A stretch of 64,000 nucleotides of DNA from Echinicola marina (GTDB lineage Bacteria; Bacteroidota; Bacteroidia; Cytophagales; Cyclobacteriaceae). Each line of letters opens with the position of its first letter. Positions within the stretch are counted from its first letter, which is position 1. This document shows positions 5,260 through 38,823 of the stretch, one piece after another. The position numbers were made by a program, and so were the translations under genes. Under the pieces are notes generated by a model. The model was not told the DNA's origin. It did not search any database and saw nothing but the letters and a program-made list of their open reading frames with translations. The stretch covers positions 2,291,501 to 2,355,500 of the forward strand of contig NZ_CP080025.1 in assembly GCF_020463795.1 (NCBI RefSeq), given 5' to 3'.

Positions 5260-6447
5260 CTATTGTATTGCTATAAACTGAAATTTCTCCCCTTTTTGAT
5301 AGGAGTCCTCTCTTTGAGGCAAAAGCAAGAAGCCGTCAGTTTGGGCAAGGCTGAATAAATCACCAGAGCCATTATGGTTAAGAGGCAGCACTTTTCCGTT
5401 TGTTGGAGATAGGCGCACAGAGATGAATTTTGCTAGGTGAGGGCTGCCAGGTATTTCTTCTCCAAGCTCCTTGATTTCAAAGGCCCAAGCTTTTCCTAAT
5501 GAGGAATGAAGCCATTGCTTGAAATAAAACAAGTGGTTGACATAGGTGGAAACAGGGTTGCCCGGATAAGCAAATATTTTTGTGTTATAGTCCTTGTGAA
5601 CTCCAAACCAGAAAGGCTTTCCGGGCCTTTGTGCAATGCGGTGAAATAGTTTTTGTACACCCAATTCGTTCAGGATTTCCGGAATATGATCAAATTTTCC
5701 CTTGGAAACACCGCCACTCAGTAGTAAAATATCGAAGTCCCTGACCAATTGACCCAGTTTTATCCTTAAAGCGTCCTTGTCGTCAATGATATGGTGCATT
5801 TCTGCCGTGATACCTTCCTGCTTAAGTGATGCCCAAAGTGAGTATACATTGGATTTTCTGATTTGATGAGGGAGAGGGGGTTGGTCTACATCTACCAATT
5901 CATCCCCTGTTGAGATAATGGCCGCTGAAGGTAATTTGGCTACGTTTATCTTTGCCTTTCCTACAGTTGACAAAATACCCAGGTCTGCAACATTTATTTT
6001 CTTGCCCTTTTCGAGGACCTTCTCTCCTTTTTTGGAGTCGCTTGCTTGATAGTGGATAAAACGTTTGCTTACTTTTTCAATATGAACATGGGCTTTTCCA
6101 TCTTTGATTTCTATTTCCTCATAAGGGATAATGGTATCTGCATTAATGGGTAAGATGGCTCCTGTCATGACCTCCAAGCAATGGGATGTATCTGCTAGGG
6201 TCATTTGTGGAGCACCGGCCGCTTGTGTCCCTTGAATGGTATAATTGGTGGATAAAGGTTCATGGAGATCAGGTAAACTGATGGCGATGCCGTCCATCAT
6301 CACCCTGTCAAAAGGAGGCGCATCACGATCCGCGAAGATGTCTTCGGCTAAAAACCTCCCAACAGCTTCAGTCAAGAGAACCTCTTCGATTCCATAAGAT
6401 TGTTTTTGGCTAAGAACTAAGTCAAGGGCTTCCTGGATAGTGATCAT
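5260..6447 (-). CDS. moeA: Molybdopterin molybdenumtransferase MoeA
   Basis: MoeA inserts molybdate into adenylylated molybdopterin. The 395-aa protein shows the family's landmarks: APPFDRVMMDGIAI near residue 43, GAILPINADTIIPYEE near 120, ISTGDELV near 188, the MoCF-domain motif LLLSGGVSKGKFDHIPE near 250, AQRPGKPFWFG near 280 and AYPGNPVSTYV near 300. It is the last of the molybdenum-cofactor genes in the transcription direction and is separated from moeB by 295 bp carrying an inserted palindromic element (6542-6663). It may therefore be read through from the moa operon or have its own promoter; I see no convincing promoter box. No mog/moaB-like gene, which normally adenylylates molybdopterin before MoeA acts, is present in the window. 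Confidence 0.93.
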   Translation of the reverse strand: MITIQEALDLVLSQKQSYGIEEVLLTEAVGRFLAEDIFADRDAPPFDRVMMDGIAISLPDLHEPLSTNYTIQGTQAAGAPQMTLADTSHCLEVMTGAILPINADTIIPYEEIEIKDGKAHVHIEKVSKRFIHYQASDSKKGEKVLEKGKKINVADLGILSTVGKAKINVAKLPSAAIISTGDELVDVDQPPLPHQIRKSNVYSLWASLKQEGITAEMHHIIDDKDALRIKLGQLVRDFDILLLSGGVSKGKFDHIPEILNELGVQKLFHRIAQRPGKPFWFGVHKDYNTKIFAYPGNPVSTYVNHLFYFKQWLHSSLGKAWAFEIKELGEEIPGSPHLAKFISVRLSPTNGKVLPLNHNGSGDLFSLAQTDGFLLLPQREDSYQKGEKFQFIAIQ

Positions 6448-6742: not shown

Positions 6743-7840
6743 TTACTTTACTCCTCCAACTTCTACCTTCGAACTTCTCACTGCATTCATCCCGCCCTGT
6801 ACATTGAAAATATTGGCTGTGGGGAAGAGTTCTTTTAGCATTAGAGCTGCCTGCTGGCTCCTTTTTCCTGATTGACAAATAATGATAAGTTCCTTTACCG
6901 ACCTGAGCTCTTCTGTTTTTTTATTTATTTCCTGAAGGGGGATATTGATAGCCTGTACCAAACGATCCTGGTCAAATTCTGCATTGCTGCGTACATCTAT
7001 CAATCGGAATGATGTTCCGGCATTTATTTTTTCTAATAAATCTTCAGGACTTAATTCATGATAATCCATACTGCTGGCACAAACATCCTGACGATAATCG
7101 TTTTTTAATTTATTAATGGCCTTGTTTTCAGCTTTGCAAGGCACGCCTATTTTCAAATGATTTTGTCCAAGTGTGTCCACGATCATTAGTTTTCCTGATA
7201 GTGGTTCACCGATTCCTGTGATCACCTTAATGGCCTCCAATGCCTGATAAGTGCCAATAAGTCCCGGTAAAATGCCCAAAACCCCATTTTCATCGCAGTT
7301 AGGTATGAGTTGATTGTGGCTAGACTCAGGGAAGAGGCAGCGGTAAGTAGGGCCATCTTGATAATTCAACACAGATACTTGTCCTTCAAAATCGTGAATG
7401 GCGCCATAAATAAATGGCCTGCCTAAAATCACACAGGCATCATTCACAAGGTATCGGGTGCCGAAATTGTCAGATGCATCCAGGACCACATCATAATCAG
7501 CGATGGTGTCCAATGCATTTCCAGGATCAATATATTTTGCAATATTAATGAGTTTGGTTTCAGGATTTTGTTCCTGTAGCCAGGAAATAAGGGTGTCGGT
7601 TTTGGCTTTTCCTATGTCCTTTGGACGAAAAAGGGTTTGTCGGGCAAGATTGCTTTCTTCGATAAGGTCTTGATCCACGATGCCAATAGTGCCTACGCCC
7701 ACACCATTGAGGTACTGGGCTGCAGGTGTGCCCAATCCACCAGCACCGATGATCAGGACTTTTGACTTGGCCAGTTTATCTTGGGCTTCTTTGCCGAAAC
7801 CTTTGAGCTTAATATGTTTTTGATACCTTGAACTAGGCAT
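6743..7840 (-). CDS. moeB: MoeB/ThiF-type adenylyltransferase with C-terminal rhodanese domain
   Basis: The protein activates the C-terminal glycine of MoaD by adenylylation, and the rhodanese domain may supply sulfur. The nucleotide-binding motif IIGAGGLGTPAAQYL lies near residue 30 and the acidic/arginine active-site strip (DQDLIEESNLARQTLF) near 57. The ThiF domain ends around residue 245. The rhodanese domain (about 260-360) carries the active-site Cys in IICQSGKRSQ. Two of the four zinc-binding cysteines of E. coli MoeB are not in the usual C-x2-C pairs here: TYRC replaces CYRC, and a lone VPC stands in place of the second pair. Zinc binding may therefore be reduced or absent. The gene starts five bases after mobA and ends the compact moa operon. 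Confidence 0.88.
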   Translation of the reverse strand: MPSSRYQKHIKLKGFGKEAQDKLAKSKVLIIGAGGLGTPAAQYLNGVGVGTIGIVDQDLIEESNLARQTLFRPKDIGKAKTDTLISWLQEQNPETKLINIAKYIDPGNALDTIADYDVVLDASDNFGTRYLVNDACVILGRPFIYGAIHDFEGQVSVLNYQDGPTYRCLFPESSHNQLIPNCDENGVLGILPGLIGTYQALEAIKVITGIGEPLSGKLMIVDTLGQNHLKIGVPCKAENKAINKLKNDYRQDVCASSMDYHELSPEDLLEKINAGTSFRLIDVRSNAEFDQDRLVQAINIPLQEINKKTEELRSVKELIIICQSGKRSQQAALMLKELFPTANIFNVQGGMNAVRSSKVEVGGVK

Positions 7841-7845
7841 AGGGA

Positions 7846-8439
7846 TTATTGGTCTATTCTGGATTTGGCCAATTCATAGTCTTCTGGATAGTTGGCATTG
7901 AATAGTTCCAGGTCCTTTTCTGGATAGATCAATGCGGTATCACTATTGATTAGGAATTTTCTTGGACAGCTTTTTCCTGATTCCAAGATGAATTTTTCAG
8001 CTTCTTTCAGCCCCTTTGGTTCCCAAATACCTATCAATGGTTCTGGGAGCTGAGATTCATGTGTAGCATAGACCGTGGCCATTTTTTTGGGTTGACGTTG
8101 TTTGATCAAGGATCGTAGTGTACTTTCATGTATGTGGGGCAGGTCTACGGCAACTACCAGCCAGGCTTTGTCAGGATAAGCATGGTGGGCAGAGAGAATG
8201 CCATTAAGAGGGCCTTTGTAGTGGTTTTCGTCAAGTATATAGCTTAACCCCGATTGGGTAATGTTTTCTTGGTCGGCTCTGCAGCTTATATAGGTTTTTG
8301 GACACAATTCTCTTAAAGTATGGTACAAGTAGGTCCGGTGGTTAGTGCGGTAATATTGCAATTCGCCTTTGTCATGGCCCATTCGGCTGCTTTTTCCTCC
8401 TGCCAATACCAGTCCGTAGAGATTATCTGTTGAAATCAT
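7846..8439 (-). CDS. mobA: Molybdenum cofactor guanylyltransferase MobA
   Basis: MobA attaches GMP to molybdopterin, making the bis-MGD form needed by DMSO-reductase-family enzymes such as the NasC protein encoded in this window. The nucleotide-binding signature LVLAGGKSSRMGHDKGELQY opens the protein (residues 11-30), followed by the family pattern GPLNGILSAHHAYP near 80 and VAVDLPHI near 98. Length is 197 aa, normal. It overlaps moaC by 17 bp and is five bases from moeB, so it is firmly inside the operon. Confidence 0.9.
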   Translation of the reverse strand: MISTDNLYGLVLAGGKSSRMGHDKGELQYYRTNHRTYLYHTLRELCPKTYISCRADQENITQSGLSYILDENHYKGPLNGILSAHHAYPDKAWLVVAVDLPHIHESTLRSLIKQRQPKKMATVYATHESQLPEPLIGIWEPKGLKEAEKFILESGKSCPRKFLINSDTALIYPEKDLELFNANYPEDYELAKSRIDQ

Positions 8440-8905
8440 TTTTTCCTCCTTGTTTTGCCATTAATTTGGTTTCACTGATGATAATATCATGGCTGAGGGC
8501 CTTGCACATATCATATATGGTCAAAGCTGCCATGCTGGCTGCTGTCAAGGCTTCCATTTCCACACCTGTCTTGCCTTCGCACTTTACACTTGCTTGGATG
8601 GTCAGCTGATTCTCTTCAGGAGTAATGTCTATATGGATTTTACTCAATGCCAAAGGGTGACAGAGAGGAATCAGGTCGGAAGTTTTCTTGGCTGCCATGG
8701 TGCCCGCAATGATGGCGGTTTGGATAATGCTACCCTTTTTGCCCAAGAAATTATCAGCACTTAAACTATTGAATACATTTTCTGGGAATTTAACGCTGGA
8801 CTGGGCAGTGGCAGTGCGTTGGGTAATGTTTTTGTCAGATACATCTACCATTTTTGCATTGCCTTCTTTGTCCACATGGGACAATTGGGTATTCTTATTT
8901 TTCAT
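8423..8905 (-). CDS. moaC: Cyclic pyranopterin monophosphate synthase MoaC
   Basis: MoaC converts the MoaA product 3',8-cyclo-GTP to cyclic pyranopterin monophosphate in the first stage of cofactor synthesis. The diagnostic motifs are LIPLCHPLALSKI near residue 80 and CEGKTGVEMEALTAASMAAL near 108, which include the catalytic Lys and the Glu/Asp cluster. The N-terminus (LSHVDKEGNAKMVDVSDK) is also typical. The 160-aa length is usual. The start codon overlaps the end of moaA by four bases and the end overlaps mobA, a tightly coupled arrangement. Confidence 0.95.
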   Translation of the reverse strand: MKNKNTQLSHVDKEGNAKMVDVSDKNITQRTATAQSSVKFPENVFNSLSADNFLGKKGSIIQTAIIAGTMAAKKTSDLIPLCHPLALSKIHIDITPEENQLTIQASVKCEGKTGVEMEALTAASMAALTIYDMCKALSHDIIISETKLMAKQGGKNDFNR

Positions 8906-9885
8906 CCTCCGATTAGTGTCATGGATTTTTTGGTGACGGACTGTTTTTCGGCTTCAAATCCATCCTTATGACGAGTTTGCAAAGCAGTGTATATGCTAAA
9001 TTTCAATCCGCTTACATTTATATAATTTCTCAACAGTGATTTGAGATCAATGGTTTCTGTTGCGTAAAGACAAGTTTGCATTTCTCCCTTTGCCGAAACC
9101 CGCACACGGTTACATGTGCCGCAAAATGTTCTGGAATAACTGGGGATAATACCGAATGAGCCCTTTGCCCCCTTGATCTTGTAGTTGAGTGAGGTGGAAC
9201 TAGGTGCTGCAGGTAATTTCTCTACTTCACCAAAATGTTTTTTGATATGTTCTATAATGGCAATATAGTCCCATTTGAGTACATTTTTGCCTTTGGATTG
9301 GCCATTGAAGGGCATTTCTTCCAAGAATCTTACTGTGATAGGATGTTCCTGGACAAAATTGATAAAAGGTATGATATCCGCTGTGTTTTTGCCGTTCATG
9401 ACCACACAGTTCAGCTTGATATTGAAACCTTGTTCTACCATCATTAAGATATTGGCCATGACGGTATCATATTGGTCACGCCTGGTGATATGGTTAAACC
9501 GGTCTTTGTCCAAACTGTCAAAACTTACATTGATGGTGGTGATGCCTAGCGCTTTTAGTTGGGTGATATGAGGGCCTATCAGTGTGGCATTGGTCGTGAT
9601 GGATATTTCATCTAGTCCTTGTAATTGGCTTATTCTTTCTAAAAAATCCATTAGTCCCTTACGGACAAATGGTTCACCACCTGTAATCCTGATTTTGTTT
9701 ATGCCCATATCCACAAAAGCTTCGGCCATGATGAACATCTCCTCCCAGCTGAGCAACTCATGCTTGTGGGCAAACTGGACTCCTTCCTCGGGCATACAAT
9801 ATTGACACCGCAGATTACAGTTATCTGTGACAGATAGTCTCAGGTAATTTATTTTTCTTCCGTGATTGTCAATTATAGATGGCAT
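8902..9885 (-). CDS. moaA: GTP 3',8-cyclase MoaA (radical SAM)
   Basis: MoaA uses S-adenosylmethionine and two iron-sulfur clusters to turn GTP into 3',8-cyclo-7,8-dihydro-GTP. The radical-SAM cluster motif is C23-x3-C27-x2-C30, followed by the SAM-binding ITGGEPFVRKGL. The second cluster motif is FCGTCNRVRVSAKGEMQTC (C-x2-C-x13-C) near residue 255. The C-terminus ends in Gly-Gly, the flexible tail needed for activity in this family. Length is 327 aa. It lies between moaE and moaC in the operon. Confidence 0.96.
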   Translation of the reverse strand: MPSIIDNHGRKINYLRLSVTDNCNLRCQYCMPEEGVQFAHKHELLSWEEMFIMAEAFVDMGINKIRITGGEPFVRKGLMDFLERISQLQGLDEISITTNATLIGPHITQLKALGITTINVSFDSLDKDRFNHITRRDQYDTVMANILMMVEQGFNIKLNCVVMNGKNTADIIPFINFVQEHPITVRFLEEMPFNGQSKGKNVLKWDYIAIIEHIKKHFGEVEKLPAAPSSTSLNYKIKGAKGSFGIIPSYSRTFCGTCNRVRVSAKGEMQTCLYATETIDLKSLLRNYINVSGLKFSIYTALQTRHKDGFEAEKQSVTKKSMTLIGG

Positions 9886-9894
9886 AAAATTCTT

Positions 9895-10311
9895 TTATGG
9901 ATGGGCATTTATCCAAGTACTGTGATCTCGGTAAGTTTCTTTTTTCCAAATGGGGACCACTTCTTTCAAGCGATCAATTAGGTGCCTTGAGGCCTGAAAT
10001 GAGGCATCTCGATGAACTGAGGAGGTCCCTATAAAAACGACTGGATCAGTGATTTCTTTTTCGCCTATAGCATGAATAATTACAATTTTATTCAAAGGCC
10101 ATTTTTTTGCGGCGTCTTCAGCTAGCTCTTCCATCTTTAATATGGCCATCTTTTCATAGGCTTCAAAGAAGAGGTGATTGACTTCCTTACTGTTGTTGAG
10201 ATCCCTTACCGTCCCAATGAAAGTGCAGATTCCTCCACTTTTGGGGTCTACTAGCATTTGGTAAGCCTCTGCAATATTGATTTCAGATGTAATGGCGATA
10301 TGACTTTCCAT
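9895..10311 (-). CDS. moaE: Molybdopterin synthase catalytic subunit MoaE
   Basis: MoaE with thiocarboxylated MoaD adds the dithiolene sulfurs to cyclic pyranopterin monophosphate. Family motifs are GGICTFIGTVRDLNNSKEV near residue 30, LFFEAYEKMA near 48, IIHAIGEKEITDPVVFIGTS near 78, and the catalytic lysine segment VPIWKKETY near 120. The 138-aa length is normal. It is 11 bases after moaD and nine before moaA, so the two synthase subunits are translated together. Confidence 0.94.
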   Translation of the reverse strand: MESHIAITSEINIAEAYQMLVDPKSGGICTFIGTVRDLNNSKEVNHLFFEAYEKMAILKMEELAEDAAKKWPLNKIVIIHAIGEKEITDPVVFIGTSSVHRDASFQASRHLIDRLKEVVPIWKKETYRDHSTWINAHP

Positions 10312-10322
10312 GGTGTATTTCT

Positions 10323-10562
10323 TTATCCACCACTTACTGGTGGAATCAGGGCAACTTCATCGTGCTTATTGATTACAGTTTCTTCACTTGCGTAGAATAG
10401 ATTGACCGATATGGCGAGAGAAGGAAGGTTGATCAAATCTGGATATTTTTGATAAAGCAGGTCCTTGAAATCCTTTACTTTGACAAAGGTTTCTTCCATC
10501 GGGAAATCTATCATGGCTGCCCCTGTAATGTCCTTGGCAACTCCAAATGCATGTACTTTCAT
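10323..10562 (-). CDS. moaD: Molybdopterin synthase sulfur-carrier subunit MoaD
   Basis: A ubiquitin-like ThiS/MoaD protein of about 79 aa ending in Gly-Gly (ALIPPVSGG), the residue pair that MoeB adenylylates and that carries the thiocarboxylate. I start it at the ATG at 10562 (MKVHAFGVAKDITG), the position that fits the beta-grasp fold; the frame is open further upstream with an ATG at 10622 and a TTG at 10631. It is the first gene of the moaD-moaE-moaA-moaC-mobA-moeB series. A 16-bp TACGTA-type box lies 91-106 bp upstream of this start. Confidence 0.88.
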   Translation of the reverse strand: MKVHAFGVAKDITGAAMIDFPMEETFVKVKDFKDLLYQKYPDLINLPSLAISVNLFYASEETVINKHDEVALIPPVSGG

Positions 10563-10652
10563 AACGATTTTAATTACTTCAAGTGAATGGTGTTCAGTTC
10601 TTTGTGTAAGGTTACTGATCATTTTTAGCAAGGTACTAAATAATTTGATAAA

Positions 10653-10668
10653 TACGTAAAAATACGTA
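10653..10668. promoter_or_regulatory. Putative NarL-type operator (TACGTA-N4-TACGTA) before the moa operon
   Basis: The sequence TACGTAAAAATACGTA occurs here and is repeated exactly at 18394-18409. It can be read as two inverted heptamers, TACGTAA and TACGTAT, separated by 2 bp, the same 7-2-7 geometry as E. coli NarL sites (TACYYMT-N2-AKRRGTA). No clean TAnnTTTG box follows on the minus strand. Binding by the neighbouring response regulator is an inference. Confidence 0.6.
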
Positions 10669-10762
10669 CAAAATTAAGTGGGTTTAGGGCCTGGCTATTG
10701 AAGTGGGGATAAGGTAATAAGAATAGTAGGAACAATCAATAGTTCCTGTTACGAAGGGTGAT

Positions 10763-11443
10763 TTAAGCACTCTCTATATGTTGTTTCAATCCAGGCTCTT
10801 CTTCTAGCTTTTTCAATAATTCAACGACATTGCTCACTTTTAGCTTTTTCATGATATTAAACCGGTGGGTTTCTATGGTCCTGATGCTTTTGCCCAGCTG
10901 TTCAGCAATTTCTTTGTTCCCTATCCCGTCGGAAATCATTTTCAAGATTTGCTTTTCCCGCTTGGTAATCTCATAAGTGTTGGTAGGAGCAATGTTTTTG
11001 GTGACTTTTCTGTCCTTTACGTTGAGATAACTTTTGACCAGTACCTGGCTGATATCTCCACTGAAATATTGGCCGCCTTGGAAAATGGTACGAATGGCTT
11101 TCATGAACTCATCTTTGCTGGTGTCTTTTAGCAAATAACCAGAAGCTCCACATTCAATGGATTGAAGGATATAATCTTCATCATCATGCATGGATAGTAT
11201 CAGCACCTTGGTCGGGTCTTTAAGCTGATTTAGCTTTTTGGTGGCATCAAGACCGTTCATTACGGGCATCCTGATGTCTATGATCAGCAAGTCTGGATTG
11301 ACTTTTTCTACTAATTGAATGGCCTCTTCTCCATTGGCTGCTTCTCCGATCACTTCCACTTCCCCTTCGTTTTCCAGTAGGTTCCTTATACCGCTCCTGA
11401 CTACAACATGGTCATCTGCCAAAACTACTTTTATTTTTTCCAT
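10763..11443 (-). CDS. NarL/LuxR-type response regulator
   Basis: The receiver domain (residues 1-120) has the acidic pair DD at 10-11, the phospho-accepting Asp56 in LLIIDIRMP, Ser in LILSMHDD and Lys in YLLKDTSK. The output domain (about 150-215) is a LuxR/NarL helix-turn-helix: ITKREKQILKMISDGIGNKE, then IAEQLGKSIRTIETHRFNIM. It is read with the histidine kinase 19 bp upstream. The pair sits between the molybdenum-cofactor operon and nirBD, so nitrate/nitrite control of these genes is likely, although NarL-family regulators serve many signals. Name narL is not assigned because orthology cannot be tested here. Confidence 0.9.
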   Translation of the reverse strand: MEKIKVVLADDHVVVRSGIRNLLENEGEVEVIGEAANGEEAIQLVEKVNPDLLIIDIRMPVMNGLDATKKLNQLKDPTKVLILSMHDDEDYILQSIECGASGYLLKDTSKDEFMKAIRTIFQGGQYFSGDISQVLVKSYLNVKDRKVTKNIAPTNTYEITKREKQILKMISDGIGNKEIAEQLGKSIRTIETHRFNIMKKLKVSNVVELLKKLEEEPGLKQHIESA

Positions 11444-11462
11444 CCTCTCTTAATTTTTCATA

Positions 11463-13265
11463 TTAATCCAAAGGTATATTGATGCTTATTTTTGTTCCTT
11501 TTCCCTTTTCGGAAAAGATCGTACACTGTCCATTGATAAAGTTAGCTCTTTCTCGGATATTGAACAGCCCGTGCCCAGAAGCAGAGAAATGCCCTTTTTC
11601 TTCTAATTTTCTCATGTCAAAGCCCTTGCCATCGTCACTGATCTCCAAATTTAAATACTGGGAATTGTGCGAAAGGGTGATTTTGACTTCTTTGGCTTCG
11701 GAATATTTTATGGCATTGTTTACTGCTTCTTGGCAGATCCTGTAAAGGTTGTTTTCTACTTTTCCTTCCAAGCGGGTAAGAAACCCCGTTTGGTTTTCAA
11801 AAGATACCTGAAGGTCTGAAAGTTTAGATATTTCCCTGCAGAATTTATTCAGCACCGGTACAATACCATAGTCTGAAAGTGCACTTGGGGTAAGGTTAAA
11901 GGAAATCCTTCTTACTTCTTTAATGACGTTTTTCAGGAGATCCTTGCTTGTTTTTAACTTATTTCTTTCGATGTCGGTGTTTACCGAGTGGATTCCCTCT
12001 AGGTTAAATTTCATGGCGGACAGCAATTGACCAATACCATCATGCATATCTCTTGAGATACGCTTTCGTTCTTCTTCTTGTCCTTCCAGGATCAAGGCTG
12101 ACCGGAATTGTTGCTCCTTGACTTTCTTTTCGATTCTTTCCCTGTTGATTTCCTGTGAAATGGCCTCTGCTTCTTTCTTTTCTGTTTCATCAGTGGCAAT
12201 GATCATCAGGGTTTCCAGCTCTCCGCTATCACCCATAGTAGGGGTAATGTTTACCTTAAGCCAAACGAAATCCCCCATTTCATTGATGACCTTGATTTCT
12301 CCGGACCAGGTCTTTCCGTAAGGCATCATCTCTTGGATTTTTTCAAGGTAGGCACCTTCATAGCCCTGTTCTTGTAGCCACTTGAAGAGGTTTTGAGGAG
12401 TGTTGTCCTCAAACTCCATCAACTTAGAGAATTTATCAGAAAAGTAGGTGAAATCACCGTTGGCTTTGCATTTGGCAAAAATGGTAAAATCCTCCACATC
12501 CACATCCACCTCCAAAAGATCTTGGTAGGCTTGTTCCAAGGAACTGTAAAGCGAGCTGAGCTCCAAAGTCATTTTTTTGGATTTTTGCTCTGATTGAAGG
12601 AGTTGTCTGAAAGTCTTTTTGATGGTTTTTGCGGAAGGAATGAAAATAAAGAAAATTTCAAACATGATTACACCCAGGGAGATCACCAAAAGAAATATTT
12701 CTATACCCTGAAGGTTGGTGACTTTTGTTTTGGCTTCGTCATCATATTGAAAGACAATCATGTCCATGCCTTTCAAAAATGCCGATTCATGCTTGATGAT
12801 TTGATCAATGTCTTCTTTTATACTGTCGGTCGGGGCCTGTATGTTTTCGTTGAGTTTATGGATGATGTTTTCTGCGGCTCTGACAATGGCAAGGTGGTCT
12901 TGTTCTATATTTTGGAATAAAAACTGGACAGTTTTACTGTTTCGGCTAATAATGTCCAAATTGCCATCACCGTTTTTTAATCCAAGATGGGTGTCTCTCC
13001 AATCGCTTAAGGCCAAACTGAATTCCTGCAAATATTTGTTTCTTTGGGAAGACTGTGTGGAATCCCCTAAAAGTAAGGCGCATTTACTGATTTTTTGGCT
13101 GAGCATTCTTTGCCTTCCGGAAAGGTTGATTACCCGTGAATCATTTTTTTGCTCACTGATAAATTTTTGAACCAGGATTTGGCTGAGAATGATGCTGGTA
13201 GCAATGGCACAAAGGGCTATTAAGTAATAGCGGACCAGCTTTTCGTATTTTGGTTTTTCAGACAA
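11463..13265 (-). CDS. NarX-like sensor histidine kinase with PilJ/NIT-type sensor, PAS and HisKA_3 domains
   Basis: Two transmembrane helices (about residues 12-34 and 188-210) bracket an extracytoplasmic four-helix region. This begins with VINLSGRQRMLSQKISK (45-61), the counterpart of the nitrate-binding P-box of NarX and NarQ. A coiled linker and a PAS domain (about 255-365, with a following TDETEKKEAE junction) come next. The dimerisation domain has the phospho-acceptor His408 in ISRDMHDGIGQLLS, typical of the HisKA_3 subgroup that partners NarL-type regulators, and is followed by an HATPase domain (N box NNAIKY, G boxes DDGKGFD and GHGLFNIRERA). It is co-transcribed with the response regulator. 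Upstream, at 13307-13322, lies a weaker TACGTA-type box. Nitrate or nitrite as ligand is inferred from the P-box and gene context. Confidence 0.88.
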   Translation of the reverse strand: MSEKPKYEKLVRYYLIALCAIATSIILSQILVQKFISEQKNDSRVINLSGRQRMLSQKISKCALLLGDSTQSSQRNKYLQEFSLALSDWRDTHLGLKNGDGNLDIISRNSKTVQFLFQNIEQDHLAIVRAAENIIHKLNENIQAPTDSIKEDIDQIIKHESAFLKGMDMIVFQYDDEAKTKVTNLQGIEIFLLVISLGVIMFEIFFIFIPSAKTIKKTFRQLLQSEQKSKKMTLELSSLYSSLEQAYQDLLEVDVDVEDFTIFAKCKANGDFTYFSDKFSKLMEFEDNTPQNLFKWLQEQGYEGAYLEKIQEMMPYGKTWSGEIKVINEMGDFVWLKVNITPTMGDSGELETLMIIATDETEKKEAEAISQEINRERIEKKVKEQQFRSALILEGQEEERKRISRDMHDGIGQLLSAMKFNLEGIHSVNTDIERNKLKTSKDLLKNVIKEVRRISFNLTPSALSDYGIVPVLNKFCREISKLSDLQVSFENQTGFLTRLEGKVENNLYRICQEAVNNAIKYSEAKEVKITLSHNSQYLNLEISDDGKGFDMRKLEEKGHFSASGHGLFNIRERANFINGQCTIFSEKGKGTKISINIPLD

Positions 13266-13306
13266 GGGTAATGGTTGATATTTATTTTTTTATCCAATAT
13301 TAAAAT

Positions 13307-13322
13307 TACGTAATAACACTTA
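13307..13322. promoter_or_regulatory. Degenerate TACGTA-N4 box before the sensor kinase gene
   Basis: TACGTAATAACACTTA resembles the 16-bp box before moaD and cobA: the first half is exact, the second half has two changes. It lies 42-57 bp upstream of the kinase start. On the minus strand a near-consensus -7 element (TAATATTG) begins four bases after the TACGTA half. This would fit autoregulation, but the match is partial. Confidence 0.4.
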
Positions 13323-13338
13323 AAAAACTAAGGATTAA

Positions 13339-15213
13339 TTATTTTCTTTCTTTTTGGTTAATAAGTAGAATTCCTGATAGGCTATTGATTTCAACCTCTT
13401 TGTCTTGTTTTCGAGTATATCTAATGTGGTGTAGTTCGAGTTTGTACCTTTCGTCTTGGCTCTTGATCATCAGGTGGTTTGGTGAGATGTTGGTGTCTTC
13501 CTCACTTGCTGATAGTACTTGATTTTCTTCTATGAGGGAAGCGATCGACAACTTGACCTGGTCCTGGCCGTTTTGAATCCGCACTCCTTTTCTGTTTTTG
13601 GTAAAAGATAAGTCAAATTGCTTTCCACCCGCATATATTGTTATGCTATCCTGTTGGTTTAAGTGAAATTGGCTGAGGTAATCATATCCGCTTACTTGGG
13701 TGCTGTGTCTGTCCAATTTTGCCCTGATAATATAATCTTTTTGATACGGTTTATTGGATAGGTCGAGCCCCATTGTTTCTAGATAAAGTCTTGATTGGTC
13801 AATGCTCCTGTTTCCTTTAGGATCATTTTTGATTGCCAGCATGATTTGATGAAGGTCTTGGCTGAACCAAGGATCGATTTTATCAAGGCCGTGATGCTCG
13901 GAAAGATATCTTATAATTGATTTGACTTCTTCTTTTTGAGTGGAATCCAAGGATAAATTGAGGTTCTGATTTTCCAGTGCCTCTAATTCAGGCAAACGGT
14001 TCGTTTTCCAAAGAATTTCTTGTCTTAACTTTTGGTCTTTGAGGGAATTGGATTCTGATAGGATGGATTTTAATCTATTGAACTGACTGTTTTCACTTAC
14101 AGAGAAGATACCCCAAGGACCAAATGAGGCTAATAATAACAGCAGGGTAAGTGATGAAGGGATGATTTTGATATTTTGGAAACCTAGAATGAAGTAAAAA
14201 CAGGTGAAAGTGAGCCATATTCCCAGCAAAACTATCAAATAGCGGTTGATGGTAATGCCATATTCACTTATCCTGATCCCGATGGCCAGAAAGAGAACAA
14301 GTACCAGTGGTAATAACAAATAATAGTAAAACCTCGAGAAAGTACTTATCCATGCTTCATCCTTATCATTTCTGTAAGGATAAAGTAATAGCAGGGCCAG
14401 TATTCCCAAAGAGGAAACCGAAATAATCAGATAGCTGACAATTCCTTCTGGCCAGTTCCAGTTGATGATGATCTTGATACAATATCCATAAAGGATCAGT
14501 AAATAAAGCGTCAACAAGGGCAGGAGAATAAATTGACTGAAAATTCTTAGTCCTCTAGGGAAAGTGTTTTCCAATTCTATTTCTTTGAAGTCTTCTGGGA
14601 TGCCCGAAATGAAGAACCAAGTATTGAAAATACCTATGATAAAAATGAAAATCTGAAGAAAGATTTCATCCTCAAATTCGATTTCAAAAAGTAAGTGGAT
14701 GGCCATCAAGGCCAGAATGATGCCTACAAAAATGATCAGGGAAAACAGTAGACCAATGGTCGTACGGATAAATAATGTTTTATTGTAATTCCAAAAGTCC
14801 AAAGTCTGCTTGCTTTTGCTATAAGGCATAAATGAAACCAAGAGATGGGAGCATAGACAGAAAATGGCAAAACGGTAATAGGGCAAAGCAGTATTTTGAC
14901 TGCTGCGTCCATCAGGAAGTGTATAGTATATGCCGACCAATATCGCGAGGCCTATAAACTCTAGAACCTTTTTTTGCTTTTTCGAAAGTTTTTTTTTCTC
15001 TGCAAAGATGATGATGCCAAAAAATAAGGAAATACCTAATGCCGCGACCAACATTCCATTGATAAATGGAAAAAGATTTGTGGAGGAAGAAGCGAATTCT
15101 ACACAATAGTTAGCAAAGGAAACTGCCAATATTGCTGCGATCATGACCCAAGGAAACCGGTTGAAGGATTGTTGGGCCTGATCACGCAGGTATCTTACGG
15201 ATAGTAGTTTCAT
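13339..15213 (-). CDS. DUF4153 family polytopic membrane protein
   Basis: The first 400 residues contain about ten to eleven hydrophobic helices (for example near residues 24-42, 50-68, 85-98, 112-128, 150-175, 185-203). The loop FWNYNKTLFIRTTIGLLFSL after the fourth helix and the acidic LFEIEFEDEIFLQI segment are typical of DUF4153 proteins. The C-terminal 220 residues are soluble and mixed in charge. The family has no assigned function. The gene lies between the nirBD terminator and the kinase operon on the same strand, 73 bp from the kinase gene. Whether it belongs to nitrate metabolism cannot be decided from the sequence. Confidence 0.75.
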   Translation of the reverse strand: MKLLSVRYLRDQAQQSFNRFPWVMIAAILAVSFANYCVEFASSSTNLFPFINGMLVAALGISLFFGIIIFAEKKKLSKKQKKVLEFIGLAILVGIYYTLPDGRSSQNTALPYYRFAIFCLCSHLLVSFMPYSKSKQTLDFWNYNKTLFIRTTIGLLFSLIIFVGIILALMAIHLLFEIEFEDEIFLQIFIFIIGIFNTWFFISGIPEDFKEIELENTFPRGLRIFSQFILLPLLTLYLLILYGYCIKIIINWNWPEGIVSYLIISVSSLGILALLLLYPYRNDKDEAWISTFSRFYYYLLLPLVLVLFLAIGIRISEYGITINRYLIVLLGIWLTFTCFYFILGFQNIKIIPSSLTLLLLLASFGPWGIFSVSENSQFNRLKSILSESNSLKDQKLRQEILWKTNRLPELEALENQNLNLSLDSTQKEEVKSIIRYLSEHHGLDKIDPWFSQDLHQIMLAIKNDPKGNRSIDQSRLYLETMGLDLSNKPYQKDYIIRAKLDRHSTQVSGYDYLSQFHLNQQDSITIYAGGKQFDLSFTKNRKGVRIQNGQDQVKLSIASLIEENQVLSASEEDTNISPNHLMIKSQDERYKLELHHIRYTRKQDKEVEINSLSGILLINQKERK

Positions 15214-15265
15214 AGTTCGAATATGCCAGAGGCTTTGAACTATAATTTACATTAAAAAAATGAAA

Positions 15266-15293
15266 AAGCAGGGTTTAAAATCAAACCCTGCTT
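15266..15293 (-). terminator. Terminator downstream of nirD
   Basis: An 11-bp perfect stem (AAGCAGGGTTT at 15266-15276 against 15283-15293) with a six-base loop is followed on the minus strand by TTTTTCATTTTTTT. It lies 89 bp after the nirD stop in the direction of transcription and should end the nirBD message before the DUF4153 gene. Confidence 0.85.
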
Positions 15294-15381
15294 AGTTACG
15301 AAAAATAGGTCTACTACTAATTGATTATCTGCCAATCTGCCTTTAGGATTTGGTAGACAAACCTATGCTTTCATTTCCCTT

Positions 15382-15759
15382 TTACTCTTCAAAGCCGACA
15401 AATACATGTCCATCCTCGATTTTGATCGGATAGGTGGCAATATCACAGGTGTCACCATTAAGGTTTTTGCCTGATTTCAGGGAGAAAGTTTTTTTATGAA
15501 AAGGACAAGCGACTTTCGGTTCTCCTTCAAATGAGCCAATCATGCCTCTGGATAAGATCATCTGCATTTTATGAGGACAAAGATTTTGGCATGCATACCA
15601 TTCGTTTCTTCTGGTGAAATTAAAAATGGCAATTTGAAGATCTCCATATTTGATGCAGGCTCCTCCATCTTCGGGAAAGCGGTCCACGGGAGCTGCTTTG
15701 AACCAATGTTTGACTTTAGAGGTGTCGGCTGTTTTGTATTTTTCCAATTCTGAAATCAT
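15382..15759 (-). CDS. nirD: Nitrite reductase small subunit NirD (Rieske-type)
   Basis: NirD is the small Rieske-like partner of NAD(P)H nitrite reductase. Unlike many proteobacterial NirD proteins, this one keeps all four Rieske ligands: C61-P-H63 in NLCPHKMQ and C85-P-F-H88 in VACPFHKKTF, so a 2Fe-2S cluster is probably bound. The pattern FEGEPKVACPFH, then FSLKSGKNLNGD, is typical. It follows nirB by 46 bp on the same strand and ends before a strong terminator. Length 125 aa is slightly longer than average because of the N-terminal 18 residues. Confidence 0.9.
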   Translation of the reverse strand: MISELEKYKTADTSKVKHWFKAAPVDRFPEDGGACIKYGDLQIAIFNFTRRNEWYACQNLCPHKMQMILSRGMIGSFEGEPKVACPFHKKTFSLKSGKNLNGDTCDIATYPIKIEDGHVFVGFEE

Positions 15760-15805
15760 GATGTCTTTGTTTAGTGTTAAGGTATCAAAGGGCTATTTGA
15801 TGGGG

Positions 15806-18298
15806 TTACCATGGGGATGGGATTTTTTGACCCCTCATATCCTGAAACTGGAGGTTTGGATCTTCTTCATCAGCATTCAGGAAATGTTTGAATTTGGCTC
15901 TTAACTCAGGGTTATTGACCACTTCTTTCCATTCACACGCATAAGTGTCGATCATAAACTGCATTTCTCTTTCTAACTCTTCTCCGATTCCCAAGCTGTC
16001 ATTGACCACTACATCTCGGACATATTCCATTCCTCCTTCCAGTTTATTCAGCCAAGTGGCGGTTCTCGTCAATGGTTCAGCGGTCCGGATATAGAACATC
16101 AAGAACCTATCAATGAATTTCAGGCAAGTTTCCGTATCCACATCATTGATCAATAGTTGCGCGTGTTGGGGTTTTGACCCTCCATTACCACAGATATAAA
16201 GGTTCCATCCTTTTTCAGTGGCAATGATGCCAAAGTCCTTGCTTTGTGCTTCTGCACATTCCCTGATACAGCCAGATACAGCTCCCTTAAGTTTATGCGG
16301 GGAGCGAAGTCCACGGTATCTTTCTTCCACTTGGATGGCAAATGAAACGGAATCTTGTACACCATATCGGCACCAGGTACTCCCTACACAGCTTTTTACT
16401 GTCCTTAGGGATTTGCCATATGCGTGACCGCTTTCAAAACCAGCGTTGATCAATTCTTCCCAAATGTCGGGCAACTGGTCCACCCTTGCTCCGAAAAGAT
16501 CGATTCTTTGGCCGCCAGTGATTTTGGTATAAAGGCCATATTTTTTCCCGACTTCTCCAATTACAATAAGTTTTTCTGGAGTGATTTCCCCTCCCGGGAT
16601 TCTAGGCACCACTGAGTAGGTTCCGCCTCTTTGGATATTGGCCAGAAATCGGTCGTTGGTGTCCTGGATAGTGTCCTGCTTGGTGATCAGGTCATTCCAA
16701 GTGCTTGCCAAAATAGAGGCTACTGCTGGTTTACAAACTTCACAGCCATCACCTTGACCAAATTGATCAAGTAGCTCATTATAGGTTTTGATCTTTTTGA
16801 TTTTGACCAGGTCAAGCAGCTCCTGTCTGGAGTAATCGAAATGTTCGCAAAGGACATTTTTTACAGCTTTGCCCATGGCCTTGAGCTGATGCTTTAATAG
16901 GTCGTTCACCATAGGCATACAGCCTCCGCAGCCAGTGCCAGCTTTAGTACAGGATTTGATTTCGTCTATTTTGGTGATGCCATCATTTTCTATAAGGCTA
17001 CAAATGCTTCCTTTGGAGACGTTCTCACATGAGCAGATTTGGGCTTCATCAGGAAGACTTTCTACTCCCGCGCCTACAGCTTCCTTTCCTCCTCTTGCTC
17101 CCAATATTAAGTCTTCTGGTTCAGGAGGCAAAGGCATTTTGTTTTGGCACATCTGCAATAGCATATTATAAGCAGAGGCCTCTCCTACCAAAATACCGCC
17201 CAGAAGTCGCTTTCCATCCATGGAAACATTGATGCGTTTATAGATGCCACTGTTTTTGTTTTCATAAATAATCGGCTTGGAGGGCTCAAATTCCCCAAAA
17301 GGATCTCCAAAACTTCCCACATCCACACCGATCAGTTTGAGCTTGGTGGACATGTCAAAGCCCATAAAAGGCCTAACCTCTTCATTGACCAGCTGGTTGA
17401 CTACTTGGCTGGCCATTTCATATCCTGGGGCTACCAAGCCATAAATCATGTTCTTATATGAGGCTACTTCTCCGATGGCAAAAATATTTTCATCCTCGGT
17501 TTGTAAAAACTCATTGACAATTACACCACCGCGGGGAGCAGTGGCTAGTCCACAGTCTTTGGCAAGTTCATCTCTTGGTTTGATCCCGGCTGAAATAATC
17601 AGCATTTCTACAGGTAGCTCGCTGTCATCAGCAAACTTCATGGATTCCAGCTTGCCATTGCCTTTGATTTTTTTTGTGTTTTTATTGAGATGGATTTGGA
17701 TGCCTAGCTCTTCTAGCTTTGATTGAAGTGTCGCTGAGCCGGCCTCATCAAGTTGTCTTGGCATTAGCCTAGGAGCAAATTCTATTACATGGGCCTTAAG
17801 TCCCATATCAATTACAGCTTTAGCTGCCTCCAAACCTAATAATCCACCACCTATAACCGCAGCTGTTTTTACCTTTTTGGAATAATTGATTATCGCATCC
17901 AGATCTTCCAAGGTACGGTAAACAAAAACGCCTTTTTTGTCCACGCCATCAATAGGAGGAACAAATGCGCCTGAGCCTGTAGCCAATATCAGTTTGTCAT
18001 AGGAATAATCGTGTCCCGAATGGGAAATGATTTTTTTCTGATCCCGATCGATTTTTACGATCATTTCATTGGTATGCAAAGTGATATCGTTTTCTTCATA
18101 CCATGATCTAGGTGCCATGATCAAGTCGTCAGCCGTGGATCCAGAGAAATATTCACTTAGATGGACCCTGTCATAGGCTGGCCATGGTTCTTCTCCAAAT
18201 ACGGTGATTTCAAAATCCTTTGCGGTTTCCTGTGCACAAAGTTTTTCACAAAACTTATAGCCGACCATTCCATTTCCGATTACTGCTATCTTTGTCAT
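15806..18298 (-). CDS. nirB: NAD(P)H nitrite reductase large subunit NirB
   Basis: NirB carries out the six-electron reduction of nitrite to ammonium in the cytoplasm. Domains in order are: FAD/NAD(P) pyridine-nucleotide oxidoreductase (1-300, IAVIGNGMVGYKF at 4-16 and AAVIGGGLLGLEAAK near 147); NirB C-terminal FAD part (300-400); a BFD-type 2Fe-2S domain with C422, C424, C457, C460; a second short BFD-like segment (CEVC near 519-522); and siroheme nitrite reductase half domains with the 4Fe-4S/siroheme ligands C637-x5-C643 and C677-x3-C681. At 830 aa it is full length. It is divergent from cobA, which makes the siroheme precursor, and precedes nirD. A 16-bp TACGTA-type box lies 96 bp upstream. 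Confidence 0.96.
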   Translation of the reverse strand: MTKIAVIGNGMVGYKFCEKLCAQETAKDFEITVFGEEPWPAYDRVHLSEYFSGSTADDLIMAPRSWYEENDITLHTNEMIVKIDRDQKKIISHSGHDYSYDKLILATGSGAFVPPIDGVDKKGVFVYRTLEDLDAIINYSKKVKTAAVIGGGLLGLEAAKAVIDMGLKAHVIEFAPRLMPRQLDEAGSATLQSKLEELGIQIHLNKNTKKIKGNGKLESMKFADDSELPVEMLIISAGIKPRDELAKDCGLATAPRGGVIVNEFLQTEDENIFAIGEVASYKNMIYGLVAPGYEMASQVVNQLVNEEVRPFMGFDMSTKLKLIGVDVGSFGDPFGEFEPSKPIIYENKNSGIYKRINVSMDGKRLLGGILVGEASAYNMLLQMCQNKMPLPPEPEDLILGARGGKEAVGAGVESLPDEAQICSCENVSKGSICSLIENDGITKIDEIKSCTKAGTGCGGCMPMVNDLLKHQLKAMGKAVKNVLCEHFDYSRQELLDLVKIKKIKTYNELLDQFGQGDGCEVCKPAVASILASTWNDLITKQDTIQDTNDRFLANIQRGGTYSVVPRIPGGEITPEKLIVIGEVGKKYGLYTKITGGQRIDLFGARVDQLPDIWEELINAGFESGHAYGKSLRTVKSCVGSTWCRYGVQDSVSFAIQVEERYRGLRSPHKLKGAVSGCIRECAEAQSKDFGIIATEKGWNLYICGNGGSKPQHAQLLINDVDTETCLKFIDRFLMFYIRTAEPLTRTATWLNKLEGGMEYVRDVVVNDSLGIGEELEREMQFMIDTYACEWKEVVNNPELRAKFKHFLNADEEDPNLQFQDMRGQKIPSPW

Positions 18299-18393
18299 AC
18301 GTTTGTTGGTTTATAGGTTAGGCTGTTTTTCTAAGTAATTTGACTGACTATTAGATTGATTACAGCGGCTAAGTTATAAATTAAATTTAATAA

Positions 18394-18409
18394 TACGTAA
18401 AAATACGTA
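18394..18409. promoter_or_regulatory. Putative NarL-type operator between nirB and cobA
   Basis: TACGTAAAAATACGTA here is identical to the box before moaD. It lies 45-60 bp before cobA and 96-111 bp before nirB. A weaker third half-site (TACTTA) follows at 18416. On the minus strand TAAATTTA begins four bases after the box, and on the plus strand an exact TAAATTTG lies 10 bases after it. The box thus occupies the -33 region of both presumed promoters, suggesting an activator site; this is inference. Confidence 0.62.
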
Positions 18410-18419
18410 TAAAAATACT

Positions 18420-18427
18420 TAAATTTG
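18420..18427 (+). promoter_or_regulatory. Bacteroidota -7 box of the cobA promoter
   Basis: TAAATTTG matches the TAnnTTTG consensus of the Bacteroidota primary sigma factor exactly and would give a transcript start near 18434, about 20 bases before the cobA ATG. A TTG at the -33 position is not present; the TACGTA box stands there instead. Confidence 0.55.
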
Positions 18428-18453: not shown

Positions 18454-19221
18454 ATGGACAACATAAATAAGAAACTATCGATAGTGGGAGCAGGTCCAGG
18501 AGATCCTGACTTGATTACCTTAAAAGCCATTAAAGTGCTCAAAAGTGCCGATGTGGTATTGTATGATGCGCTTGCTAATGAGGATTTATTGGCTTACGTA
18601 CCTGAGACGGCCATTAAGGTTTTTGTGGGGAAAAGGGCCGGTATGCATTCAAGACAACAACAAGAGATCAATAGGATGATTGTTGATTATGCGCAGACCT
18701 GTGGGCATGTGGTAAGGTTAAAAGGAGGAGATCCCTATGTGTTTGGTCGTGGACACGAGGAATTGGAGTATGCCGCCCAATTTGGTATTCCTACTGAGTA
18801 CGTACCAGGAATAAGTAGTGCGATGTCTGTGCCTGGACTGTCAGGGATACCTTTGACCAAGAGAGGAGTGAATGAGAGCTTTTGGGTAGTGACGGGAACT
18901 TTGAAAGATCACTCAACAGCTCAGGATTTAAAATATGCTGCGCAATCATCTGCAACCGTGATTATATTGATGGGAGTAAAAAAACTGCCTGAAATCGTTC
19001 AATTATTTAAGCAATTTCGGGGCGGAAATGAGGCTGTCGCTATGATTCAAAATGGCAGTAGACCTGATGAAAGGTTTATTTCCGCTGATCTTGAAAATAT
19101 TCTTAGTATTCAGGAAAAAGAGCAGCTGATGGCACCCTCGATCATTGTGATTGGTCAGGTAGTTAAAGAAAGAGGTAGGCAGTTGGGTAGCTATTTGGAG
19201 GGAAAAGTGTTGGTCCAATAG
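18454..19221 (+). CDS. cobA: Uroporphyrinogen-III C-methyltransferase (SUMT)
   Basis: The enzyme methylates uroporphyrinogen III at C-2 and C-7 to precorrin-2, the branch point to siroheme. Motifs: LSIVGAGPGDPDLITLKA at residues 8-25, VLYDALANEDLL near 36, VRLKGGDPYVFGRGHEE near 88, and VPGISSAMSVPGLSGIPLTKRG near 115. Length (255 aa) is that of a stand-alone SUMT, not of the trifunctional CysG. The dehydrogenase/ferrochelatase needed to finish siroheme is not encoded in this window. Divergent transcription from nirB, the siroheme enzyme, with a shared intergenic box strongly suggests a supply role for nitrite reductase. Confidence 0.94.
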   Translation: MDNINKKLSIVGAGPGDPDLITLKAIKVLKSADVVLYDALANEDLLAYVPETAIKVFVGKRAGMHSRQQQEINRMIVDYAQTCGHVVRLKGGDPYVFGRGHEELEYAAQFGIPTEYVPGISSAMSVPGLSGIPLTKRGVNESFWVVTGTLKDHSTAQDLKYAAQSSATVIILMGVKKLPEIVQLFKQFRGGNEAVAMIQNGSRPDERFISADLENILSIQEKEQLMAPSIIVIGQVVKERGRQLGSYLEGKVLVQ

Positions 19222-19444
19222 TAGTGGTTGAGAGATGTTAGATCCGAGAGATGTTTCAGCTGAATTGTGCTTTGATCTACGGTTTTTAGGAATTTAGGAT
19301 GGGGACTTTGCTTGCTTGGCCAACATATTTAGTAAATGTGACTTAATACCACTCCTTTATCCAGCATTTGGTCATTCGTTCTTATTTATTTTCCTTCTAA
19401 GCGGAAATCCTCCTAAATTGATTTTTCAATTGAATTTTCGAATT

Positions 19445-20041
19445 ATGACTGCGAATAAATTTGATAAGACCATCGAGGAGATAGATGCGATCAATGCGGA
19501 AGATCCTCATAAGGAATTGGTTAACGGTAAAGAAGTGTCCAAGGAGCTGGTTTATGGACACAGAATGTCAGGGATGTTATTGGATTTTTGCCCTGAAGCT
19601 TCAGAAACCTTGCGCTTGGCTGCCAGATGCCAACATATAAAGAGATGGGCCATCCCGAGAGAAGATTTTTCTATGGACAGAAAGGGGTATTTGATGTGGA
19701 GAACCAAACTGAAAAAGTATCATGGTGAATTGGCTGGTTCCATTATGAAGAAGCATGGCTATGAGGAGGGTGAAATCCAGAAGGTGGATGATCTGCTTAA
19801 TAAAAGAAGACTAAAAACAGACCCCGAGGTTCAGGCTTTGGAAGATGTGGTATGTTTGGTGTTTCTGAAGTATTATTTTGATGATTTTATTGTTAAACAT
19901 CAAGATGAGGAAGGGAAGCTGGTGGATATTGTTCAGAAGACATGGAAAAAAATGTCAGAAAAGGGGCATGATGCTGCTTTGGCCATGAGCCATTCCGATG
20001 CTGCTTTGACCATTGTAAAGAAAGCACTTGCAGCTACTTAG
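19445..20041 (+). CDS. DUF4202 family protein
   Basis: The 198-aa protein (ATG at 19445) matches the DUF4202 pattern: FDKTIEEIDAINAEDPHKE at the start, ELVYGHRMSGMLLDFCPEAS near residue 35, LRLAARCQHIKRWAIPRE near 57, and LEDVVCLVFLKYYFDDF near 135. The spaced His/Arg/Asp residues recall HD-type hydrolases, but no HD pair is clear and no activity is known. It lies 223 bp after cobA on the same strand and ends in a good terminator, so it may belong to the same transcript. Members of the family often sit near nitrite reductase or nitrogen genes, which agrees with the context here. Confidence 0.78.
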   Translation: MTANKFDKTIEEIDAINAEDPHKELVNGKEVSKELVYGHRMSGMLLDFCPEASETLRLAARCQHIKRWAIPREDFSMDRKGYLMWRTKLKKYHGELAGSIMKKHGYEEGEIQKVDDLLNKRRLKTDPEVQALEDVVCLVFLKYYFDDFIVKHQDEEGKLVDIVQKTWKKMSEKGHDAALAMSHSDAALTIVKKALAAT

Positions 20042-33261: not shown

Positions 33262-33436
33262 CTTTTTTATAGCTTTTGCTGTGGTAAAGTTATGGTTTTA
33301 TTGTGAAGGATGCTGGTTTGTTTTATCCTAATAGTGTTGGAGTGATTCAGGTCGAAAATGTATTTGCTTCCCGGTATTAAACTTAACGGTTTGATTTTCA
33401 AAGGGCCGATAGTCAAGCTCAAGGGACAGGAATACA

Positions 33437-36958: not shown

Positions 36959-36976
36959 TGCTCTGGGGGTTAATGC

Positions 36977-38651: not shown

Positions 38652-38702
38652 AAAGAGGATCCTAATACTTTCATTCCTTTTACTGAATATTGGATCCTCT
38701 TT
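38652..38702 (+). terminator. Orphan terminator-like hairpin between narK and the DUF2461 gene
   Basis: AAAGAGGATCC (38652-38662) and GGATCCTCTTT (38692-38702) form an 11-bp perfect stem with a 29-base loop, followed on the plus strand by TATTG. No plus-strand gene ends here, so it either terminates a short non-coding transcript or is a structure in a long narK leader read from the other strand. Confidence 0.4.
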
Positions 38703-38774
38703 TATTGAGCAGCTTGTGGTTTTCTTTGAATTACTGAAAACTACTGATGCTAAGGTAAGTTATTATTTTTAAAA

Positions 38775-38823
38775 TAAGTAAAAATACGTAATTAATTTTA
38801 CGTAAAATTTATATTTCTACGTA
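38775..38823. promoter_or_regulatory. Cluster of three TACGTA boxes upstream of narK and the DUF2461 gene
   Basis: TACGTA occurs at 38785-38790, 38799-38804 and 38818-38823. The first belongs to TAAGTAAAAATACGTA (38775-38790), one base different from the 16-bp box at moaD and cobA. The middle one is the core of a 14-bp palindrome (ATTTTACGTAAAAT). The cluster lies 440 bp upstream of narK and 200 bp before the DUF2461 gene. Confidence 0.5.

Follow-up and report, generated by a model that had tools for sequence, protein, structure and literature searches.

What is the function of a 16-bp repeat that recurs, letter for letter, ahead of different genes in a bacterial nitrate assimilation cluster? 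In the 64,000-nucleotide stretch of the Echinicola marina genome analysed here (contig NZ_CP080025.1, positions 2,291,501 to 2,355,500; hereafter, the window), the box TACGTAAAAATACGTA lies both upstream of genes for molybdopterin cofactor synthesis and between the divergent genes nirB and cobA. A first-pass annotation had pointed out this repeat, and both copies proved to be exact and intergenic. On the strength of sequence comparisons, we judge that the box probably (roughly four chances in five) serves as the operator of a nitrate-assimilation regulon under a NarX/NarL-like two-component system. The features on which this reading depends are:

10653..10668, no strand: exact box TACGTAAAAATACGTA, candidate operator of moaD-moaE-moaA-moaC-mobA-moeB, which are transcribed on the minus strand
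18394..18409, no strand: exact box TACGTAAAAATACGTA, intergenic between divergent nirB (minus) and cobA (plus)
10763..11443, minus strand: NarL-family response regulator (receiver and GerE/LuxR helix-turn-helix), putative binder of the box
11463..13265, minus strand: sensor histidine kinase (PilJ, PAS, HisKA_3 and HATPase domains by Pfam), putative nitrate sensor; occurs with nirBD in relatives
6743..10631, minus strand: moeB, mobA, moaC, moaA, moaE and moaD (molybdopterin cofactor synthesis), candidate regulated operon
15382..18298, minus strand: nirD and nirB, assimilatory nitrite reductase, candidate regulated operon
18454..20041, plus strand: cobA (uroporphyrinogen-III methyltransferase, siroheme) and a DUF4202 gene
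31831..38332, minus strand: narK, a nasC-type nitrate reductase and a rubredoxin/NIR_SIR protein

Exact boxes in the window and the genome

The box at 10653 is flanked by the end of the response regulator gene on one side and by moaD on the other, upstream of the minus-strand moa/mob/moe genes. As the first-pass annotation had held, the repetition is unlikely to be due to chance: the window contains five sites at ≤3 mismatches against a mean of 0.25 in dinucleotide shuffles, none of 100 shuffles reached five, and the whole 5.69-Mb genome has three exact TACGTA-N4-TACGTA sites against none for a backward-read control. One of the three is ahead of moaD-moeB, another separates nirBD from cobA, and the third stands 14 bp upstream of an FNR-like gene. 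Behind the last, on the same strand, come genes for an Alginate_exp porin, an NMT1_2 substrate-binding protein, a permease and two ATPases, and this FNR-headed porin-nrt row is a nitrate-type ABC transporter operon. Upstream of narK (window 38775) and of the porin, the boxes are degenerate. With the wider wording TAMGTA-N4-TACKTA, there were 9 sites versus 4 in the control for genome G000, and 8 versus 2 for the same-genus genome G047; five of the nine G000 sites are nitrate or cofactor sites, and the remaining four are about the control level.

Conservation of the box in relatives

A survey of the family covered 60 genomes from 59 genera. Genomes with a full-length or split kinase orthologue (best E below 1e-70) were counted as kinase-bearing, which gave 21; some kinase match at 1e-20 was present in 52, mostly to the kinase core, and such core matches were excluded. 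NirB was found in 23 of the 60, and 21 of these 23 are the kinase-bearing ones. The 21 kinase-bearing genomes contain 28 exact boxes versus 6 in the backward control; one lies within a gene (L083) and 27 stand before nitrate or cofactor genes, a count that treats several neighbours of ~425 amino acids as porins (two of these, at L112 and L073, were tested with Pfam).

Across the phylum, we collected the best 80 of at least 564 matches to the kinase alignment, from related species that are not independent samples. These 80 loci span Cytophagales and Flavobacteria, and include Echinicola, Cyclobacterium, Algoriphagus, Fulvivirga, Flammeovirga, Salegentibacter, Maribacter, Arenibacter, Winogradskyella and others. 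Within them, exact boxes were intergenic in 76 cases and coding in 2, though the DNA is 85% coding, and the totals of exact sites for 23 further palindromic hexamers of equal composition were 0–2 each. At ≤1 mismatch there were 170 intergenic and 7 coding sites (0–3 and 0–12, respectively, for the 23 controls); genes in the fetched loci were called as longest open reading frames and named by best blastp match, so that starts are uncertain and a few intergenic labels near starts may err, the longest frame of the FNR-like gene even spanning its box. The next downstream gene was a nitrate or cofactor gene for 168 of the 170 intergenic sites, compared with 50.1% of intergenic bases. Counted by gene, with both members of a divergent pair included, boxes preceded nirB (75), cobA (49), narK (43), nasC (15), porins (14), nrtA (12), genes of unknown type (12), the kinase (7), the regulator (4), and moaD, FNR and DUF4202 (2 each), with one before a TonB gene. 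A TACGTA-type box at ≤1 mismatch was found in 59 of 73 nirB upstream regions and was missing from 14, and the strict degenerate form was found in 66 of 74. The first-pass annotation had named equal frequency within genes or before unrelated genes, or a lack of conservation, as signs of a false lead; these nitrate loci displayed none of them.

The scan that it had proposed bore out a concentration of the motif before nir, nar/nas and nrt genes; its expectation for moa held only in part. An exact box before moaD was present in four Echinicola-type loci or genomes, namely the window, same-genus G047 (L062, at the equivalent position), L170 and L173. Five Flavobacteria loci with moa genes (L193, L199, L203, L224 and L246) had no box at ≤2 mismatches upstream of moaA or moaE, regions that, as called, may sit inside operons. 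In G007, one box occupies the interval that separates the FNR-like gene from a divergent neighbour of moa genes. Thus, conservation is wide for the nirB part of the finding and narrow for the moa part.

The box follows the kinase

The nirB promoters of the 60 family and 395 phylum genomes were compared for a TAMGTA-N4-TACKTA box at ≤1 mismatch. The box was present in 36 of 37 kinase-bearing and 0 of 13 kinase-less genomes (Fisher p 4e-11, which ignores relatedness), with G248 and G307, which have only a kinase-core match, counted as kinase-less. By genus, a hand count gave 24 of 25 versus 0 of 12.

These data bear on two other explanations. In one, AT-rich Bacteroidota promoters commonly carry the box as a structural, sigma-factor or nucleoid element, with no nitrate-specific reader. 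The exact sites in kinase-less genomes and the overlap of a half-site with the −7 element (both described below) would suit such an element; the 13 box-free nirB promoters of kinase-less genomes, the 168 of 170 kinase-locus sites that precede nitrate or cofactor genes, and the lack of enrichment of 23 palindromes of equal composition would not, and we find this explanation scarcely credible. In the other, the FNR-like CRP-family regulator, encoded by the gene behind the third exact site, uses the box as its operator, and the two-component system is a bystander. In its favour, the exact box stands 14 bp upstream of the FNR-like gene in G047 also, and 18–20 bp upstream in G043 and G007, and an N4-centred palindrome also suits CRP/FNR proteins. 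However, close FNR orthologues (>60% identity) are present in just 6 of the 60 family genomes, all kinase-bearing, while the nirB box is found in 21 of 21 kinase-bearing ones. In addition, the FNR-type words TTGAC-N4-GTCAA and GTAAC-N4-GTTAC in the available text of PMC1274295 differ from the box, and the FNR-like gene looks like a target. The FNR-like protein was rejected as the binder on its distribution, the sites not following its gene, and we consider this explanation very improbable.

Among the kinase-less nirB promoters, those of G030 (L160/L166) and G016 (L162/L167), from the same family as E. marina, have a different palindrome-like repeat (GGGTTAAAAATTAACC and GGGTAAAAAAATAACC), perhaps the operator of another regulator.

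The candidate regulator and kinase

The response regulator belongs to the NarL/FixJ family, with PF00072 and PF00196 above their Pfam cut-offs, and its nearest solved structure is NarL 1a04 (E 1.8e-36). It scored 151 bits against the NCBIfam NarL model (cut-off 250), and its best NCBIfam model, MctR, was likewise below cut-off (191 versus 300). In the kinase, PF13675 (PilJ-type sensor), PF07730 (HisKA_3) and PF02518 (HATPase_c) were above cut-off, and its best named match is from Echinicola salinicaeni (93%). Its scores were below the NCBIfam cut-offs for NarX (75.9 versus 578), NarQ (73.7 versus 553) and the best model, MctS (135 versus 700). NarX and NarQ sensors are themselves PilJ-type; the kinase profile matches PilJ structures, and the sensor region presumably resembles the NarX P-box.

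The recognition helix of the regulator, RTIETHRFNIMKKL, is almost invariant in an alignment of 21 orthologues, like the operator core; a separate helix pattern left 22 of 49 adjacent regulators unread. In the helix alignment, STVKVHVKHM of NarL pairs with RTIETHRFNI, so that two NarL lysines are replaced by Glu and Phe. We take K188, V189 and K192 of NarL to be its base contacts. A helix that is changed but constant fits a half-site that is changed but constant within an unchanged 16-bp frame.

Anatomy of the box and its place in the promoter

Aligned boxes gave the 16-bp consensus TAMGTA-N4-TACKTA, with A/T-rich spacer and flanks. The 7-2-7 inverted-repeat layout of NarL operators, with heptamers worded otherwise than in E. 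coli, was recovered as first proposed, its symmetry being partly built in: aligned sites were selected by means of this 16-bp frame and taken in either orientation, and the word TACGTA is identical to its reverse complement. The proposed wording TACGTA-N4-TACGTA describes the exact sites; the consensus is wider and is accompanied by phased extra half-sites. The spacing of TACGTA words peaks at N4 (75 pairs), with lesser peaks at N7 (17), N14–17, N24–27 and N36–37 that stem in part from related species.

We took TAnnTTTG as positions −12 to −5, following the part of PMC9723704 available to us. The 80 loci contain 81 distinct promoter sequences in which the proximal half-site is fused to this −7 element (TACKTAnnTTTG). 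Nitrate genes are preceded by 271 TAnnTTTG elements, 85 of them with such a fusion. For the 175 elements ahead of other genes, neither TACT nor TACG was among the 12 commonest preceding 4-mers (listed counts 3–5). Further half-sites in the 81 fused promoters lie at offsets of −10 (44), −20 and −22 (10 each), −33 (16), −43 (17) and −53 (14); in 67 of the 81, at least one is placed at −18 or farther upstream. If the right half of a full box is fused, that box would reach from about −26 to −11; 10 of the 81 have both the −33 and the −43 half-site, which make up a second full box at about −59 to −44. Two full boxes 33 bp apart were considered as the typical nitrate promoter and rejected, since, of 27 pairs of ≤1-mismatch boxes no more than 80 bp apart in the 80 loci, most (18) are at a distance of 10 bp, one is at 32 bp and none is at 33 bp. 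A TTG at −26 to −20, ahead of the −7 element, was seen in 12 of 81 fused and 27 of 165 other promoters; given this lack of difference, we do not claim loss of the −33 element.

This geometry raises the alternative that the regulator is the right one but represses, covering the −7 element until nitrate relieves it. The frequent fusion of the proximal half-site to that element speaks for repression, as do the E. coli NarL sites near the frdA start that accompany repression in the accessible text of PMC4549865. Activation is preferred because nitrate induction of these genes is expected, because half-sites extend upstream in 67 of 81 fused promoters, and because NarL activates the E. coli ogt promoter from −44.5 and −77.5 (PMC7419079, part available); we regard repression as unlikely, though not negligible.

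Further sites of this kind in the window are:

18416..18427, plus strand: half-site TACTTA fused to a −7-like element TAAATTTG (18420-18427), together TACTTAAATTTG, on the cobA side
38775..38804, no strand: narK upstream array, TAAGTAAAAATACGTA (38775-38790) overlapping a weaker box that reaches 38804, ~440 bp before narK
13307..13322, no strand: weak box TACGTAATAACACTTA with 2 mismatches, upstream of the kinase/response-regulator genes

The fused form was thus found on the cobA side, and on reading the window none was seen at moaD or nirB. The narK array has counterpart sequence in G047 (C12:1053565). Weak or better sites precede the kinase in several relatives (≤1 mismatch in 7 cases in the 80 loci), making autoregulation of the kinase/response-regulator genes possible. 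Separately, an inverted repeat AAAGAGGATCC...GGATCCTCTTTT at 38652-38703, within the 440 bp that separate narK from its box, may be a leader structure or terminator-like.

Evidence against a dedicated nitrate operator

Several observations weigh against the reading of the box as a nitrate operator. Exact boxes occur in 93 of 395 phylum genomes, many without a NirB match at 1e-200, with up to 15 in one kinase-less genome; their presence in kinase-less genomes means that the word alone does not define a nitrate regulon. The 39 other family genomes have 23 exact boxes versus 15 in the control, around which blastp against the nitrate set returned only kinase/response-regulator relatives and one generic ABC ATPase ~2.8 kb away. 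At ≤1 mismatch, the E. marina genome has 6 sites per strand versus 12 in the control, so that loose counts in a single genome alone show nothing; the case for the putative operator rests on exact sites, gene context and conservation. The choice of the 80 loci as best matches and the kinship of their species also count here, as does the confinement of boxes directly before moa genes to Echinicola loci. The sole kinase-bearing nirB promoter without a box is that of G236, whose kinase match covers positions 151–605 only. Many Flavobacteria loci have no regulator adjoining the kinase, and no NarX or NarQ structure was among the best 60 of 125 kinase-profile matches. Finally, a box over the −33/−7 spacer could also mean repression, and we infer from the letters of the DNA that this regulator binds, that nitrate is the signal and that the effect is activation. 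The proposal of a nitrate regulon operator in Bacteroidota is upheld for intergenic position, for placement before nir, nar/nas and nrt genes and for conservation, and falls short in that the word is not exclusive to nitrate.

Other users of the word and neighbouring genes

Two genomes of one genus (g71), G143 and G347, without a NirB match at 1e-200, contain 5 and 7 tandem pairs of exact boxes 32–33 bp apart, with 0 in the backward control (loci L351-L359 for G347 and L373-L377 for G143). The first gene downstream is defence-like at three pairs (GajA, ThsB-like TIR and MkoC-like AAA), an AriA/PtuA-like ATPase is the second gene at another, and one more has a weak AbiN match. The remaining pairs stand before unknown, secreted or TonB-type genes, and two precede a different kinase/response-regulator operon; two-component control of defence-type genes in these genomes is possible. 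Exact boxes at L094 (G035) and L105 (G057) adjoin other kinase/response-regulator pairs, whose regulators have the helix RTVEKHRSNI. It looks as if the word is a NarL-type operator in the phylum, of which the nitrate regulon is one user. An extension to the tricarboxylic acid cycle was considered and is unproven: TAAGTA-N4-TACTTA is perfect in 2 of 21 citrate synthase and 2 of 16 aconitase upstream regions, in two same-genus genomes only (L285/L281 and L282/L278), and a third aconitase upstream region (L322/G012) has it at 1 mismatch.

Among the neighbours in the window, moeA (5260..6447, minus strand) is on the same strand as moa/mob/moeB, possibly in one transcript. The DUF4202 (19316-20041) and DUF7009 (31424-31819) proteins, of unknown function, recur in nitrate clusters of the 80 loci, which suggests a role in nitrate assimilation. 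A DUF4153 protein at 13339-15213, between nirD and the kinase, is also present at L062, L170 and L173, and at no other of the 80 loci.

Proposed mechanism and its meaning

What the analysis shows directly is that the boxes exist, where they stand in promoters, how they are conserved and spaced, that they co-occur with the kinase and that half-sites are fused to the −7 element. In the mechanism we propose, the membrane kinase (11463-13265) would sense nitrate or nitrite and phosphorylate the NarL-family regulator (10763-11443), a dimer of which would bind the 16-bp inverted repeat with one half-site per protomer. More protomers may then occupy the half-sites that recur about every 10–11 bp, forming an array along one face of the promoter that often reaches the −7 element. 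The genes most likely to be activated are nirBD, cobA, narK-nasC and fnr-porin-nrt, and in Echinicola also moa/mob/moe. The box would thus be a NarL-type operator with new half-site letters for assimilatory nitrate genes, kept over Cytophagales and Flavobacteria.

More tentatively, and with more doubt than belief, we suggest that the regulator forms a helically phased row of protomers whose last half-site helps to make up the sigma-A −7 element, that it activates from this position, and that this operator grammar is reused by other response regulators of the phylum, including a system before defence-type genes. To our knowledge, a helically phased row ending in the −7 element is a geometry known for no NarL protein. 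A search of open-licence PubMed Central titles and abstracts found no description of the motif or of a Bacteroidota nitrate operator, and the available part of PMC9723704 had no match for nitrate or TACGTA. For nitrate assimilation in many Cytophagales and Flavobacteria, the finding supplies an operator and a regulator specific enough to be tested; it would allow the regulon to be recognised in sequence data and connects little-studied neighbours (DUF4202, DUF7009 and the Alginate_exp porin) with nitrate use.

Comparison with known systems

Operators of FNR/HcpR type are, like the box, short palindromes with an N4 centre at nitrogen-oxide genes, but their letters differ (PMC1274295, partial text), and the occurrence of the box is not tied to that of the FNR-like gene. 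NreC sites of staphylococci have 6-4-6 spacing. NreB/NreC, likewise a two-component system tied to nitrate, has a regulator that recognises a palindrome at nitrate/nitrite genes; however, according to the available portion of PMC8139620, that palindrome is GC-rich and NreB senses oxygen.

E. coli NarX/NarL and the E. marina locus have in common a two-component system with a NarL-family regulator beside nitrate genes. In both, the operator, an inverted repeat of 16 bp, has TAC...GTA ends, and single half-sites occur beside full sites. The heptamers of E. coli NarL sites read TACYYMT. In the accessible text of PMC4549865, an engineered E. coli narG NarL site reads TACCCCTAAAGGGGTA and heptamers are TACCCCT-like, in contrast to the TAMGTAW half-site here. 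The recognition-helix residues K-V-H-V-K of NarL correspond to E-T-H-R-F, and neither the regulator (NarL) nor the kinase (NarX and NarQ) reaches the NCBIfam cut-offs. Unlike those of NarX/NarL, the targets here are assimilatory, and the half-site is often fused to the −7 element.

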